Under the pieces are notes generated by a model that was not told the origin of the DNA, did not search any database, and saw nothing but the letters and a program-made list of their open reading frames with translations. Made by a program: the position numbers and the translations under genes. From positions 1 through 64,000 of the forward strand of contig CALGYB010000041.1 of NCBI GenBank assembly GCA_937935075.1: a DNA stretch of 64,000 nt, read 5' to 3'. The stretch is from an uncultured Roseiflexus sp. (GTDB taxonomy: Bacteria; Chloroflexota; Chloroflexia; Chloroflexales; Roseiflexaceae). Of this stretch, positions 30,201-37,607 are shown piece after piece; position 1 is the stretch's first letter, and the number at the start of each line of letters is the position of its first letter.

Positions 30201-30326
30201 CCGGAGGGGCAGGTCGGAGACCTGCCCCTCCGGCCTGTCCCTCCGGCTGGCGCGTGTACGGGCAGGTCGGAGACCTGCCCCTGCTGTTGCGATCGGTCCC
30301 CGTAAGGGCAGGTCGGAGACCTGCCC
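30201..30326. repeat. Three near-identical palindromes between thiolase and galT
   Basis: Each has GGGCAGGTC-GGA-GACCTGCCC: stems at 30201-30233 (extended to 15 bp, CCGGAGG...CCTCCGG), 30260-30280 and 30306-30326. A fourth family member with loop TCA is at 52795-52817. Lying directly after the thiolase stop, they could act as terminators or mRNA-stabilising hairpins; they are also typical REP-like dispersed elements. Confidence 0.85.
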
Positions 30327-31508
30327 CTACTGCCCCAACATCTCCACCACACCCGCTGCGCCCATGCCGCCGCCGATGCACATGGTGATCAACCCGTACC
30401 GTCCGCCGCGCCGCCGCAGTTCGTGCAGGATCTGCACCGTCAGTTTCGCGCCGGTGCATCCCAGCGGATGCCCCAGGGCGATGGCGCCGCCGTTGACGTT
30501 GACCTTCTCTTCGTCGAGTTCGAGCGCCCGGATGACCGCCAGCGCCTGTGCGGCAAAGGCTTCATTCAGTTCGATCAGGTCGATCTGATCAAGGGTCAGT
30601 CCGGCCAGTTTCAGCGCCTTCGGCACTGCCAGCACCGGGCCGATTCCCATGACCTCCGGCGGTACGCCTGCGACCGCGAACGACACAAAGCGCGCCAGCG
30701 GCTTCAACCCCAGCGCGTCAGCCTTTTCGCGGCTCATCACCACTACTGCTGCCGCGCCATCGCTCGTCTGCGACGAGTTGCCGGCAGTGACCGTGCCGTT
30801 CACCGCGAAAACCGGCTTCAACTTCGCCAGCGCCTCAGCCGATGTGTCGCGGCGCGGTCCTTCGTCGGTGTCGAAAACGGTGGCAGTGCGCTGCACTTTA
30901 CCATTCTCGAACCAGACATGTTCGACTTCGACCGGCACGATCTCCTCTTTGAATCGCCCGGCATCGATGGCAGCGATCGCGCGCTGGTGCGACCGCAGCG
31001 CAAAGGCGTCCTGGTCTTCGCGGCTGACCTCGTAGCGCTTTGCCACGTTCTCGGCAGTCAACCCCATGCCAAGGTACACATCGGGGCTCATCTCGGCCAT
31101 TGCCGGGTTCGGCGCGAAATGATGCCCGCCCATTGGCACGGCGCTCATACTCTCCGCGCCTCCGGCGACGATCACATCGCCCATCCCGCTCATCACCTGT
31201 TGCGCCGCCAGCGCAATCGTCTGCAACCCCGAGGCGCAGAAACGGTTGACCGTCTGCCCCGGCACGTCGTTTGGCAGACCGGCGCGCAGCAGCGCGACGC
31301 GCGCCATATTCAGGCCCTGCTCCGCTTCCGGCATGGCGCATCCCAGGATGACGTCGTCGATCTCTTTTGGGTCGAGACCAGGCGCGCGCTCGACTGCTGC
31401 CTTGATAACAGTCGCTGCCAGGTCGGTCGGATGCACACTGCGCAGCGCGCCGCGCGGCGCTTTGCCAACCGCAGTGCGAACGGCGCTGACAATCACTGCT
31501 TCCCGCAT
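30327..31508 (-). CDS. fadA: Acetyl-CoA acyltransferase (3-ketoacyl-CoA thiolase)
   Basis: 393 residues. It carries out the last step of beta-oxidation, thiolytic release of acetyl-CoA. The nucleophilic Cys is in [14 protein letters not shown] near residue 87. [15 protein letters not shown] near 347 holds the catalytic His, and the last catalytic Cys is in [12 protein letters not shown] near 381. [11 protein letters not shown] is also present. It is the distal gene of the beta-oxidation operon, 13 bases after the FadN-type gene. An acetyl-CoA acetyltransferase role cannot be excluded by sequence alone. Confidence 0.93.
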
Positions 31509-31521
31509 GGTTCTTTCTCCT

Positions 31522-33945
31522 TTAATTCCGCAATGGCTTGCCGGTTTGCAGGATGGCCATGATCCGTTCCTGCGTCTTCGGTTGCTGGATCAACTGGCTC
31601 GCCTGCTCGAACTCCAGATCGAGGAAGTACTGCTCGGTGACCCACTGCGGCTGTGACAGGTCGCCGCCGCACATCACATACGCCAGCGAGCGCGCCAGTT
31701 TCATGTCGTAGTCGCTGATGTAGCCGCCCTGGCGCATGCCGTACACCATCGCATTCACGGCAGCGATGCCGCGCCGTCCGATGGCGTACACCGGCTCGCC
31801 CTCCGGTGGAACCGGCGTGTACCCCTCGGCGACCATCAGCAGCACTTCCTTCTTCGCCTCGGCGATCAGGCGCTCGCGGTTCATCACGATCTTGTCGTCG
31901 TCCATCAGGTAGCCGAGTTGTTTTGCCTGCACAGCGCCAAGTTCGCTGACCTTCGCCATGGCAATCGTCTCGAACGCCTGTTGCAGGTAGGGGAGCGGAT
32001 CGGCGCCAGGGGTTTTGACATGCGGCGACACGTGGCGCCGGACAAACTCCTTGCAGCCGCCCCACGCCGGGATCAGACCGACCCCCAGTTCCACCAGACC
32101 CATGTACGTCTCGGCGGCTGCCACCCGTCGCGCTGCTGCCAGGCAGACCTCAACGCCGCCGCCGAGCACGCGGCCATACGGCGCGGCGACAATCGGCTTC
32201 GGGCAAGTGCGAAAGCGGAAGAACAGGTCCTGCGTTCCTTTGGCGAATTTCGCCGACTCCTCCGGCTTGCCGCCCATAACGCCCATCAGCACCACCCCCA
32301 GGTTTACGCCGGCGCAGAAGTCGGATGACTGATTGCCGATGACCATGCCGACCCAGCGGTCGTCCTGGAGCGTTTCGAGCGCCTTCCAGCCCATTTCGGT
32401 GATTAGCGGGTCAATGGCATTGACTTTAGCGTGGAACTCGAAGCAAAGCACGCCATCTCCCAGGTCGATGAGCGAGGCGCTGTGGTTGCGCGCGACTTCT
32501 CTGCCCTGCGCGCGCAGATCGTCGAGCGACAGCACCCCTTCCGGCGGCGTGTACTCGACATAACGCGACTCGATGGGATTCCAGACGCTGACGATCCGCC
32601 CGTTCTCGCGCTGGTAGAAGCTTTCGCCGCCTTTTGCCAGCATCTCCTCGACCCACGGCGCAATGGCGATGTCACGTTCACGCATGCGCTCGGCGGTCTT
32701 GCGCACACCGAGGGTGTCCCACACCTCGAACGGACCGAGTTGGTGGCTGAACCCCCAGCGCATTGCGCGATCAATATCCACAATGCTATCGGAAATCTCC
32801 GGGATGCGGCGCGCCGTGTACGCCAGCGTGCGCAGCATCGTCTCGCGGATGAAGACGCCGGCGCGGTCTGTATCGGCGTTGTCGATCAGGAAGCGCAGGC
32901 GCTCCTGAAGGTCTTCGATCTTGCGCGCCTTGCCGACGAGGTCGAAGCGCGGCTTTTTCGGCGCTTCGTGCTCCATCGTCTGGAGGTTGAGGTGCCAGAA
33001 CTCACGCCCGGATGCGCCTTTGGTTTCTTTGTAGAAACCGACGCCGGTCTTATTGCCCAGCCATCCTTTTGCCGCCATCGCCTCGACTTCGGGCGCGATC
33101 TTGAGCGCCTCGCGCTCCTCATCGTCGGGCAGCGCTTCGTAGAGGTTGCGTTGCACGTGGAGCATCACATCAATGCCGACCAGGTCGAGCAGGCGGAAGG
33201 TGGCGGTCTTGGGTCTGCCGATCAGTTCACCGGTCAGACTATCGACTTCCTCGACCGTATAGCCATTGCGCAGCGCATACCCAACGGTCGTAGCGATGTC
33301 GTAGCTGAAGATGCGGTTGCCGATGAAGTTAGGGCGATCCTTGCACACCACCACGCCCTTACCGAGGGTCACATCGGCGAAGCGGCTAATCGCTGCAACG
33401 ACAGCGGGATCGGTATCGGGAGTTGGAATGACTTCGAGCAGGTAGAGATAGCGTGGCGGATTGAAGAAGTGCGTTCCCAGGAAATGGCGGCGGAACTCCT
33501 CGGAGCGCCCGGCAGCGATGGCGGCAATCGGAATGCCGGAGGTGTTGGATGACACGATGCTGCCCGGCTTGCGCACCTGTTCGATCTTCTCCATGAGGGT
33601 GCGCTTGGGTTCGAGTTGTTCGATAATCGCCTCCACGATCCAGTCGGCGTCCGCAATCAGTCCAAGGTCGTCCTCGACGTTGCCGATGACGATCTTTGTG
33701 ATCGACTGTGGATCGAACAGCGCCGCCGGGCGGGCGTTCTTGATACGTTCCAGACCGGCTTTGACGAAGCGGTTGCGCACCTCCTTCGATTCGAGCGTCA
33801 GACCGCGCTTTTCCTCATCGGGCGTCAGGCCAGGCGGAACCGCATCGAGCAGCACGACCTGCAATCCGGCATTGATGCAATGTGCGGCAATGCCGCCGCC
33901 CATCGTACCGGCGCCAATGACGGCCACTTTCTTGATCTGGGTCAT
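31522..33945 (-). CDS. fadN: 3-hydroxyacyl-CoA dehydrogenase / enoyl-CoA hydratase fusion (FadN type)
   Basis: 807 residues, combining beta-oxidation steps 2 and 3. The dehydrogenase comes first: the NAD-binding [17 protein letters not shown] is at residues 8-24, with SSNTSG and HFFNPP further on (substrate and His-Glu pair regions), then the C-terminal dimerisation domain up to about residue 420. The hydratase domain follows at about 480-700 with [12 protein letters not shown] and [12 protein letters not shown], which hold the two catalytic glutamates. This order (dehydrogenase then hydratase) is that of Bacillus FadN, opposite to Escherichia coli FadB. A C-terminal helical extension is present. 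Confidence 0.92.
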
Positions 33946-34028: not shown

Positions 34029-35285
34029 TCAGCGCAACTCGCGGCTCGTATAGCCAAGCAGGCGTCGCGCAACGATCAGGCGATTGATCTGACCGGTGCC
34101 CTCGTAGATATCGTTGATGCGGGCGTCGCGCATCCACTTTTCGACCAGCAATTTGCACGAATATCCTTCGGGACCGAGCAACTCGACCGCCTTTTGCGAG
34201 ACGTATGTCGCCACTTGACCGGCTTTGACCTTTGCCATCGACGCTTCGAGCGCATTCTCCTGACCCGCGTCCATCTTGGTGACGGCTTTCAGCACCAGGA
34301 GCCAACCTGCGCGATGCTGCATCTCCATATGGATCAGGTCGCGCTCGACAGCCGTTTGCAGATGGGGCGCGACGCCATAGCGCACCTTCACCCCGCGATC
34401 CTTCAGGTACGAGACGGTGAACTCGAGCGAGGCGCGCGCAATGCCAAGCGCCGACGCCGCCACCAGCGGACGGGTGGCGTCGAACGTCTTCATCGCCCCC
34501 TTGAACCCCTTGTGTTCCGTGTCGCCCTTCACGACTTCGGGGCTGCCCAGAATATTATCATATGGAATGCGACAATCGTTGAACACAATCGCCGCCGTAT
34601 CCGACACCCGGATGCCGTGCTTGTGCTCCAGTTTCGTGACCGTCATCCCCGGCGTGCCGGCTTCGACGACGAACGGCTTCATCCCGGCGCGCCCCGCTGA
34701 CGGATCGACCGTCGCCCACACGACGACGAAGCCGCGCGACTCTTTGGCGGCCATCAATCCGCCGGTGACGAAGATCTTCTCGCCGTTCAGGATCCACTCT
34801 TTGCCGTCCTCCGAGAGGCGCGCCGTTGTGCGAATAGCGGCGGTATCGGAGCCGGCATGCGGCTCGGTCATCGCCATTGCCGCCCACTTCGGCTCACCCT
34901 CGCCGAAGCGTTTCAGGAAGCGTTCCTTCTGCTCCGGCGTGCCGGTTGCATCGACCGCCGCGCCGCCGAGCGCGCCGCCGGGGGTGCATAGATACAACCC
35001 GGCATCGCCCCACGAGAGCGCCTCGACCACATGCGCCAGCATGAGGTAGCCGATGCGCGGGCGCGGCTTGCCCTCCTTGTCCGTCTTTTCCGTGCCATCT
35101 TCGACCGAGAACGAACGCCCGCCGCGGTCGCGGATGGTGGGCCAGATCAGGTTGATATAGTCCCACGGGCGCTCTGATTCGTGCTCATCGTAGTAGCGCG
35201 CAACCGGCCGCATCACCTGCTCGCCGAGCATGGTGATGAACTGCACCTGGCGCTTGATCGGGGTTGGTATCTCAAAATCGATCAT
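34029..35285 (-). CDS. Acyl-CoA dehydrogenase, Glu-bearing member of a pair
   Basis: 418 residues from ATG 35285, with GAGGAG upstream; the frame is open further but this start has the ribosome-binding site. It catalyses the FAD-dependent first step of beta-oxidation. The catalytic Glu is present in DIYEGTGQINRL near residue 398. Substrate-site MAMTEPHAGSD and NGEKIFVTGG are intact. The usual FAD-contact motifs are altered: the RxxFG element reads VRYG (KVRYGVAPHLQ) and the LGGxGY element reads LLGPEGY. Its neighbour shows the reverse pattern. Confidence 0.9.
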   Translation of the reverse strand: MIDFEIPTPIKRQVQFITMLGEQVMRPVARYYDEHESERPWDYINLIWPTIRDRGGRSFSVEDGTEKTDKEGKPRPRIGYLMLAHVVEALSWGDAGLYLCTPGGALGGAAVDATGTPEQKERFLKRFGEGEPKWAAMAMTEPHAGSDTAAIRTTARLSEDGKEWILNGEKIFVTGGLMAAKESRGFVVVWATVDPSAGRAGMKPFVVEAGTPGMTVTKLEHKHGIRVSDTAAIVFNDCRIPYDNILGSPEVVKGDTEHKGFKGAMKTFDATRPLVAASALGIARASLEFTVSYLKDRGVKVRYGVAPHLQTAVERDLIHMEMQHRAGWLLVLKAVTKMDAGQENALEASMAKVKAGQVATYVSQKAVELLGPEGYSCKLLVEKWMRDARINDIYEGTGQINRLIVARRLLGYTSRELR

Positions 35286-35295
35286 GGTCGTCTCC

Positions 35296-36396
35296 TCACA
35301 CCATCGCAAGACCAAGGAACGTGCTGAACCCGCGCCCATTGCGCAGCCAGCGCTCGACCGGATGTTCGCGAATATAGCCGTGACCGCCGAGGATCTGTAC
35401 GGCGCGGTCGGTCACCATAAGCGCCATTTCGTCGGCGTATGCTTTGGCAAGCGCCGCCTGCTGCACGGCATTGTGCTCTTTATCGATGTGCCAGGCGGCT
35501 TCATACGTCATCAGGCGCGCCGCCTCGACTTCAATCGCCATCTCCGCCAGCATAAAGGCAATCGACTGGTTCTGGGCGATCGGTTTGCCGAACGCCTCGC
35601 GTTGTTTAGCGTAATCGCGCGCATACTCGAAGGCGCCGCGCGCCACGCCGACCGCCAGCGCCGCCAGCGCCACCCGCGAATAGTTCATCAGATGGTCGAT
35701 ATCGATGCCCTGTTCGCCGCCCAACCGACACGACGCCGGCACATGGACATCGTCCAGCCGCAGTTCATAGGTCGGCAGCGCGCGGATGCCCATGAAACTT
35801 TCGCGCTCCAGCACCGCCAGCCCTTCCGTGCCGCGCTCGATAATGAATGCCTGCGTCGTCTCCCCCTCACGGGCGTACACCAGGAACGCCTGTGCATCGG
35901 CAGCGAGCGGCACGAGCGCTTTGTGACCGGAAATCTCGTAGACATTCCCTTCCCGCTCGGCGACCGTATGGAGCGCGTGCGGATCGAAACTCCAGCGTGG
36001 CTCAATCAGCGCTGCGGTGTAGGGAGCAAAACCGCCCTCTACCAGCCGAGGGAGCCATTTCTGCTTCTGCTCTTCGGTACCGTAGTGCAGGATGGGAATC
36101 GCAAACAGATTGGGAGTCATCAGGTAGAGCGCCATCGACAGGTCGCCGTAGCCGAGTTCTTCCGCCGCCAGCACGCCGGTCAGCGCCTGATGCGTCTCGC
36201 CGAAGCCGCCGTACTGTTCCGGAATGGCGCTCGGCAGCAGGCCGAGATCCCACCCGCGGGCAATAATGTCCTGCGGAATCGTGCGCTTCTCATCCGCTTC
36301 GTAGGCGGCGGGGCGCATGCGATCCGATGCGTAGCGACGCACCGTATCGATGATTAACTGCTGTTCTTCCGACGGAGTAAACGAGATCATAGCCAT
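35296..36396 (-). CDS. Acyl-CoA dehydrogenase, FAD-motif-bearing member lacking the usual catalytic Glu
   Basis: 366 residues, somewhat short. The FAD-contact motifs are complete: KQREAFGKPIAQNQ and QILGGHGYIREHPVERW. The C-terminal segment that normally reads IxEGTxEIQ is missing; the protein ends RNGRGFSTFLGLAMV. No Glu stands at the alternative isovaleryl/long-chain position either (NYSRVALAALAVG). It lies ten bases upstream of the next acyl-CoA dehydrogenase gene, which has the Glu but weak FAD motifs. This suggests a heteromeric enzyme (see findings). Start MAMISFT has AAGGAG just upstream. Confidence 0.88.
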   Translation of the reverse strand: MAMISFTPSEEQQLIIDTVRRYASDRMRPAAYEADEKRTIPQDIIARGWDLGLLPSAIPEQYGGFGETHQALTGVLAAEELGYGDLSMALYLMTPNLFAIPILHYGTEEQKQKWLPRLVEGGFAPYTAALIEPRWSFDPHALHTVAEREGNVYEISGHKALVPLAADAQAFLVYAREGETTQAFIIERGTEGLAVLERESFMGIRALPTYELRLDDVHVPASCRLGGEQGIDIDHLMNYSRVALAALAVGVARGAFEYARDYAKQREAFGKPIAQNQSIAFMLAEMAIEVEAARLMTYEAAWHIDKEHNAVQQAALAKAYADEMALMVTDRAVQILGGHGYIREHPVERWLRNGRGFSTFLGLAMV

Positions 36397-36408: not shown

Positions 36409-36960
36409 TCAACCGCTCAGCGCGCCGATCTGCATCAGCAGCGGCAGGCTGCCTTCAAACCGCAACTTACCCATCATAAACGCCATCTGCCCATTCAACT
36501 CACCCGACAGCATCTGCCGGTAATCATCGGTGGTCATCCGCAGCGTGACCGAAGGTTCGGGTTGGCCGCCAAAGATGCTGACGCTCTCGAACAGGCTCTC
36601 GTCAGAGCGGGTCAGTTCCAGTTTGACCGTTCCGCGCAGATTTTTCACCACCTCGACCTTCCGCCGCAGAAAGTAGTCGATAAACGGCTCGTGCGCATCG
36701 CTTTCCGCAGCGGAGCGCCAGTTGTCGTAGGAGAGCGTCAGTTGCAGATCGGCGCCTTCGATGCCGCCATCGACGAATTCGATGGATGAACCCGCGATCT
36801 TCAACCCAAACACGCCGCCCTGATCGCCTTCACCCTCGATCGTGTACGTCACCGTCAATTCAGGCTGCGAGAGAACCTCTTCCGATGCGCCCGCAATCGC
36901 TTCCGCGAATCGCTGTGGCACAATCTGCGAAAAGTACGCTGCCGGAGTCATGTCGCTCAT
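36409..36960 (-). CDS. SCP2 sterol-binding-domain lipid carrier protein
   Basis: 183 residues, first gene of the beta-oxidation operon. The C-terminal SCP2 signature is clear (LRMTTDDYRQMLSGELN, then AFMMGKLRFEGSLPLLMQIG). The N-terminal half is a second, weaker SCP2-like repeat. The family binds lipids or acyl-CoA in a hydrophobic tunnel, so it may deliver or buffer acyl substrates for the enzymes encoded downstream. The start has GGGAGG 14-19 bases upstream, a loose spacing. Spacing to the next gene is 12 bases. Confidence 0.88.
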   Translation of the reverse strand: MSDMTPAAYFSQIVPQRFAEAIAGASEEVLSQPELTVTYTIEGEGDQGGVFGLKIAGSSIEFVDGGIEGADLQLTLSYDNWRSAAESDAHEPFIDYFLRRKVEVVKNLRGTVKLELTRSDESLFESVSIFGGQPEPSVTLRMTTDDYRQMLSGELNGQMAFMMGKLRFEGSLPLLMQIGALSG

Positions 36961-37303: not shown

Positions 37304-37443
37304 TGAGGGGCGAGAGGGGCGAGAGGGGCGAGGGGCGAGGGGCGAGAGGGGCGAGAGGGGCGAGGGGCGAGAGGGGCGAGAGGGGCGAGGGGCGAGAGGG
37401 GCGAGAGGGGAGAGGGGCGAGAGGGGCGAGGGGCGAGAGGGGC
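37304..37443. repeat. G-rich short tandem array (GAGGGGC / GAGAGGGGC)
   Basis: About fifteen consecutive units of 7 bases (GAGGGGC) or 9 bases (GAGAGGGGC) in irregular order. It lies in the 624-bp stretch between the SCP2 gene and the hypothetical at 37585, of which 36961-37303 holds nothing recognisable. Very strong purine bias on the plus strand. Confidence 0.85.
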
Positions 37444-37481
37444 GCCCGGCGCGTCAAGCGGGCGGGCAGGCGGGCAGGCAG

Positions 37482-37607
37482 ACTCCTCACGCCTCGCGCC
37501 TCGCGCCTCACGCCTCGCGCCTCGCGCCTCACGCCTCACGCCTCACGCCTCACGCCTCACGCCTCACGCCTCACGCCTCGCGCCTCACGCCTCGCGCCTC
37601 ACGCCTC
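37482..37607. repeat. Seven-base tandem array (RCGCCTC), 18 units
   Basis: Eighteen exact-period heptamers, ACGCCTC or GCGCCTC, follow the G-rich array with the opposite strand bias. The array runs into the 3' end of the minus-strand gene, supplying its last residues and stop codon. Confidence 0.9.

Follow-up and report, generated by a model that had tools for sequence, protein, structure and literature searches.

Two acyl-CoA dehydrogenase (ACAD) genes stand next to each other in an uncultured Roseiflexus sp., and the question that they raise is whether their products are two enzymes or the two halves of one, and which reaction such an enzyme would serve. The window analysed here is the whole stretch of 64,000 nucleotides in which they lie. 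An earlier note, made from the letters of this window alone, had proposed an obligate heteromer in Chloroflexota, perhaps for bulky substrates.

The locus and the division of FAD-binding residues

Both open reading frames were found on the minus strand where that note had placed them, and both are acyl-CoA dehydrogenases, exceeding the Pfam gathering scores for the N-terminal, middle and C-terminal ACAD domains (subunits A and B; Table 1). They share 28% identity with each other, and the closest named records of B come from Roseiflexus (93-96% identity). The reading frame of B is listed as 35296-36396 with its start at 36396; translation more probably begins with the ATG at 36390 (MISF...), since homology to orthologues is shared only from that point. 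As had also been claimed, a gene for an SCP2 domain protein heads the operon, upstream of B. Against NCBIfam Staph_FadB, the FadN-like fusion scores 551 bits over its full length, under the cut-off of 999, and the thiolase scores 614 bits against PRK07661 (cut-off 633). The window's genome holds eight further ACAD genes beside the pair, and an ETF alpha gene was found in it.

Table 1. Genes of the operon, listed in their order on the minus strand
Feature	Coordinates	Strand	Evidence
SCP2 domain protein, first gene of operon	36409..36960	-	Pfam PF02036, E 4.9e-13
Subunit B (beta-like), short acyl-CoA dehydrogenase homologue	35296..36390	-	Translation, Pfam, motif table, AF2
Subunit A (alpha-like), acyl-CoA dehydrogenase	34029..35285	-	Translation, Pfam, motif table, AF2
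FadN-like 3-hydroxyacyl-CoA dehydrogenase/enoyl-CoA hydratase fusion	31522..33945	-	Pfam 3HCDH_N, 3HCDH, ECH_1
FadA-type thiolase, last gene of operon	30327..31508	-	Pfam Thiolase_N/C; TIGR01930 over cut-off

Repeats occur on both sides of the operon. Between the thiolase and galT-like genes (30207-30326), the 21-bp palindromic GGGCAGGTCGGAGACCTGCCC is present three times, with no other exact copies in the genome. In addition, two tandem arrays lie 5' of the SCP2 gene (37305-37444 and 37485-37607), made of GAGGGGCGA-type repeats with periods of 9, 16 and 25 bp and of the heptamer CCTCACG in 17.6 copies. Elsewhere in the same genome, an ACAD-like gene on contig 71 (L163, 1755-2960) has ...RDARAGLTHPPNDDA where the EGT loop is expected.

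In MCAD, as is established for the family (reportedly by Kim et al. 1993), the ADP half of FAD is contacted by R281, F284, Q349 and G353 of the neighbouring subunit. Subunit A keeps the flavin-ring side (TEPHAGSD, NGEKIFVT) together with the catalytic glutamate in IYEGTGQ, which is Glu395 of the EGT loop at the position of MCAD Glu376; the helix-G site holds Thr. The normal RxxFG of the ADP side is missing and VRYG stands instead, and MCAD Q349 and G353 have become E and P (AVELLGPEGY). These last two losses are certain; at the R281 position, a three-residue insertion leaves the alignment in doubt. The description of A in the earlier note, with its YEGTG glutamate retained and its FAD-contact motifs (VRYG, LLGPEGY) degenerate, was accurate.

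For B the same note had reported intact REAFG and LGGHGY motifs, and the ADP side is indeed kept (QREAFG, AVQILGGHGY). What had gone unnoticed is that the isoalloxazine side is lost as well (IEPRWSFD versus TEPGAGSD; HKALVPL versus QKMWITN), with T136 changed to I, GSD to SFD and W-x-T to L-x-P, and this makes the complementarity of A and B complete. Nor does B end before the EGT segment, as had been thought: the segment is present as STFLGLAMV (versus QIYEGTSQI), YEGT having become FLGL with Leu in place of the catalytic Glu, and the C-terminus ...RNGRGFSTFLGLAMV reaches its stop five residues past this Leu. The absence of a Glu from the alternative site was correctly seen, as helix G of B carries Ser. 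The FAD half-sites are split between adjacent genes and the catalytic Glu belongs to A only; this division of motifs is confirmed, and is stronger than first reported.

AF2 models of A (pLDDT 87.0, pTM 0.89) and B (pLDDT 90.2, pTM 0.90), each as a single chain, predict an MCAD fold for both. The best VIA-align match is MCAD 4p13 for A (Z 49.8, rmsd 2.2 over 376 residues) and MCAD 1egd for B (Z 47.2, rmsd 1.9 over 359 residues). MCAD/SCAD homotetramers (1ukw, 3mdd) are the nearest solved structures to the two proteins, yet each chain of the MCAD homotetramer has both FAD half-sites and the Glu, unlike A or B. The best 60 matches were ordinary ACADs only, with no solved relative of the window's lineage among them, and no ChsE chain appeared among the VIA-align matches listed for A or B.

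The complex that we infer for A and B, with its FAD stoichiometry, activity and substrate, would be an obligate heteromer, most likely A2B2, holding one FAD per A/B dimer. A would grip the flavin ring, bind the acyl-CoA and supply Glu395, and B would hold the ADP half of A's FAD through Arg266, Phe269, Gln334 and Gly338. The mirror-image site, formed by the ring face of B and the ADP face of A, would be dead, and A-A and B-B homodimers would have no complete FAD site. Such an enzyme would most likely catalyse the FAD-dependent reaction with which the beta-oxidation of long-chain fatty acyl-CoA begins, passing its electrons to ETF. This combined reading, an obligate heteromer performing a long-chain beta-oxidation step, is in our judgement the best explanation and a likely one; the heteromer taken apart from its pathway is more likely still.

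The precedent that the earlier note had named fits. In Mycobacterium tuberculosis, ChsE4-ChsE5 (FadE26-27) and ChsE1-ChsE2 (FadE28-29) of cholesterol side-chain catabolism are encoded by adjacent genes, like A and B. Their alpha subunits provide the isoalloxazine side, the Glu and the substrate site, and the beta subunits contact the ADP-ribose (PMC11153573); a single FAD is bound per alpha-beta dimer, and activity requires the heteromer (PMC8399759). The window pair matches this published division, with ring side, Glu and substrate site in one subunit and ADP-side contacts in the other.

The place of FadE and the substrate

The pair is often found in an SCP2-B-A-fadN-fadA operon or a similar order, adjoining FadN and/or FadA in Roseiflexaceae and in families f13, f58 and f67. 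In Chloroflexota without the pair, the slot beside FadN/FadA is taken by a Bacillus-type FadE, as in the fadNAE operon, which scores 683-691 bits against NF058590 (cut-off 600) and is a 600-aa single chain with all motifs, where A and B are two proteins. A and B reach 163.3 and 181.6 bits against this model, short of its cut-off. FadN was present in 43 of 121 genomes, of which 17 carry the pair, 13 carry FadE and none carries both, FadE being absent from all 17 pair-bearing genomes with FadN (hypergeometric p 2.8e-4 for mutual exclusion among the 43, uncorrected for relatedness). The pair fills the fadN-fadA operon slot in genomes that lack FadE, though not in every family that carries it: in family f3 it is unlinked and FadN lies far away.

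This operon context and the absence of FadE argue for ordinary long-chain beta-oxidation, and A and B most likely do the job of FadE. The argument is correlative, since both FadE and the pair are missing from the remaining 13 genomes with FadN and the f3 pairs are unlinked; in addition, the eight other ACADs of the window's genome could serve long chains, which counts against this role.

A real heteromer might instead act on bulky or branched acyl-CoAs derived from sterols, hopanoids or isoprenoids, with SCP2 as their carrier, in line with the substrates first suggested for the pair. In 40 of 43 distinct A proteins a proline stands in helix E at the position of MCAD Glu99, where it is not among the common residues of solitary enzymes, and LCAD and ChsE4 owe a wider pocket to a proline in this helix (PMC11153573). 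Helices 80-98 and 105-114 of the A model are separated by a break, which together with the proline would allow for branched or bulky substrates, and the SCP2 gene at the head of the operon is also consistent with them. However, the proline of A is displaced downstream from the LCAD Pro132 column, by some four residues on a hand count, LCAD accepts long straight chains as well, and A falls outside the steroid-type alpha lineage. A canonical fadN-fadA set in the operon and genomes that have the pair without FadE speak further for long chains. Bulky substrates are not established, although a widened pocket is conceivable, and we consider a specialisation for them rather unlikely.

Conservation and co-occurrence of the two subunits

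In profile searches of 400 Chloroflexota genomes, A and B were detected in the identical 44, which belong to 10 families, and their genes are side by side by coordinates in every one. With the B profile these 44 genomes score at least 424 bits and the remainder at most 360; those examined among the high scorers under this gap (L142-L145) are unpaired, normal proteins with all motifs present. All B homologues of at least 56% identity, from Roseiflexaceae and the related family f3, have A alongside and SCP2 before B. The ring side and the Glu are present and the ADP side is lost in each of the 43 distinct A proteins, and the ADP side is present and the ring side lost in each of the 44 distinct B proteins, 40 of which also lack the catalytic Glu. 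For comparison, 82 solitary ACAD homologues of other bacterial and archaeal origin were inspected, and 75 of them have ring side, ADP side and Glu all intact. Relative to close relatives, dN/dS is 0.043-0.066 for B and 0.025-0.055 for A, and values as low as these indicate that B is not decaying and is maintained as a functional protein. The proposed obligate heteromer is well supported, as the motif losses are exactly reciprocal, the two genes strictly occur together and side by side, and purifying selection acts on both; it is the complex itself that we infer.

Departures from these patterns were also seen. A catalytic-site Glu is retained in four B homologues, the L126/L127-type, L007 and L008, so that its loss is not universal; LEGL, LEGM and LEGT are found in L126 (1501-2589), L007 (1014-2111) and L008 (4737-5837), respectively, all with ring motifs lost and an equally short C-terminus. 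Three unpaired ACAD homologues from Firmicutes (L066, L072 and L078) read CGT for EGT (PSCGTSEIQKM), so that the loop Glu is absent.

One genome (G133) carries an additional A copy without an adjoining B. This lone A-type gene (L238, 3107-4300) lies near an ordinary-looking ACAD gene and an acyl-CoA synthetase-like open reading frame. Such a copy could be expected if A were active alone, forming homo-oligomers in which the ADP site is altered, and B were a regulatory or structural pseudoenzyme, and A does have every ring-side and substrate-side residue. In G133, however, a normal A-B pair is present too, which makes B available in trans, and the lone A may share it. Moreover, A and B always co-occur, and B retains in 44 of 44 cases precisely the ADP-side residues that A has lost, for which a mere scaffold has no need; we therefore regard activity of A alone as improbable.

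That A and B might be two ordinary, independent dehydrogenases agrees with their place in the ACAD superfamily (Pfam) and their MCAD-like predicted folds, yet it is scarcely credible. Every distinct homologue, across many assemblies and several phyla, shows the same losses, purifying selection is strong and the solitary controls are intact, which refutes drift or a sequencing or assembly artefact as the source of the motif differences.

Origin of the split and its meaning

The earlier note placed the heteromer in Chloroflexota, where it is indeed present, but this range is too narrow, as pairs of the window's lineage also occur in Myxococcota, a deltaproteobacterium and Mycolicibacterium. The genomes with these distant pairs hold many other ACAD pairs. 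Two genomes, G425 and G426, have 97 and 60 Acyl-CoA_dh_1 matches, many as adjacent pairs, and these bacteria possibly possess dozens of heteromeric ACADs.

We placed the pairs in a tree of 85 proteins, built by a quick method with SH-aLRT support only, in which the steroid-type group was labelled by motif pattern only, without a match to a solved ChsE chain. Pairs occupy two places in this tree. The window's A and B fall among MCAD-like enzymes together with L164, L173, L174, L178, L183, L184 and L188, and the other pairs lie elsewhere, most of their alphas having a helix-G Glu (NHERV or similar) and a GGGT-like loop. Within the 85 proteins and with the comparison set labelled by motif, the window pair does not group with the steroid-type heteromers. 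Trees constrained to unite every heteromer subunit are rejected (delta lnL 85.4, p-AU 0.0017), and the result is borderline when only the alphas are united (p 0.048). Judging from the motifs of the pairs, the steroid-type alphas compared here presumably use the helix-G Glu. In contrast to the MCAD-loop Glu of A, the steroid-type alphas, a group assigned by motif, have this Glu in HERV and a GGGT loop, and A has no Glu at that site. Descent of A and B from ChsE is improbable given the rejected clade and the MCAD-position Glu in A. The two tree positions and the rejected single clade suggest that the split architecture probably arose twice, in the window's lineage independently of the steroid-type heteromers. 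A fuller scenario, which we moderately favour, is that shared-FAD heteromers arose at least twice and that the second lineage, descended from an MCAD-like ancestor, serves fatty acids in general and has taken over from the one-piece FadE in the core beta-oxidation operon of many Chloroflexota and their relatives.

Two Myxococcota/deltaproteobacterial pairs, L178 and L188, are basal in the window's lineage, with more divergent motifs and long branches; they are possibly a third variant. Another heteromeric ACAD, the heterotetrameric IpdE1-IpdE2, is widespread in steroid degraders according to the title of a reference in PMC11153573, and B scores only 52.5 bits against the NCBIfam model of IpdE2 (cut-off 450).

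In the Mycolicibacterium pair (L164), the beta is 38% identical to B and the alpha 44% to A, the neighbours include an inositol monophosphatase gene, and no fadN-fadA operon was seen at this pair. Its neighbourhood fits the fadE24-fadE23 region of M. tuberculosis (Rv3139-Rv3140), a tentative assignment by synteny rather than by sequence; FadE17-FadE18, considered as the mycobacterial counterpart, was dropped in its favour owing to the neighbour genes of L164. If this identity holds, FadE24-FadE23 belongs to the same lineage as A and B, and the lineage is already known. The FadE23-FadE24 complex has been tied to fatty-acid recycling and beta-oxidation (PMC11980559).

Previous studies present the heteromeric ACAD as an unusual arrangement that belongs to steroid catabolism (PMC6678751, PMC8399759). 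The A/B pair varies this known enzyme type and is not a new one; in the accessible literature we found no description of its Chloroflexota branch, its operon role or a separate origin of the lineage. If our reading holds, metabolic models of these organisms are wrong to annotate A or B as an acyl-CoA dehydrogenase that works by itself. A second such lineage, located in an operon of housekeeping fatty-acid metabolism, would separate the split architecture from steroid substrates, and would provide a natural repeat of one evolutionary split, with matching losses in both partners. The splitting of the enzyme would then be no steroid adaptation.
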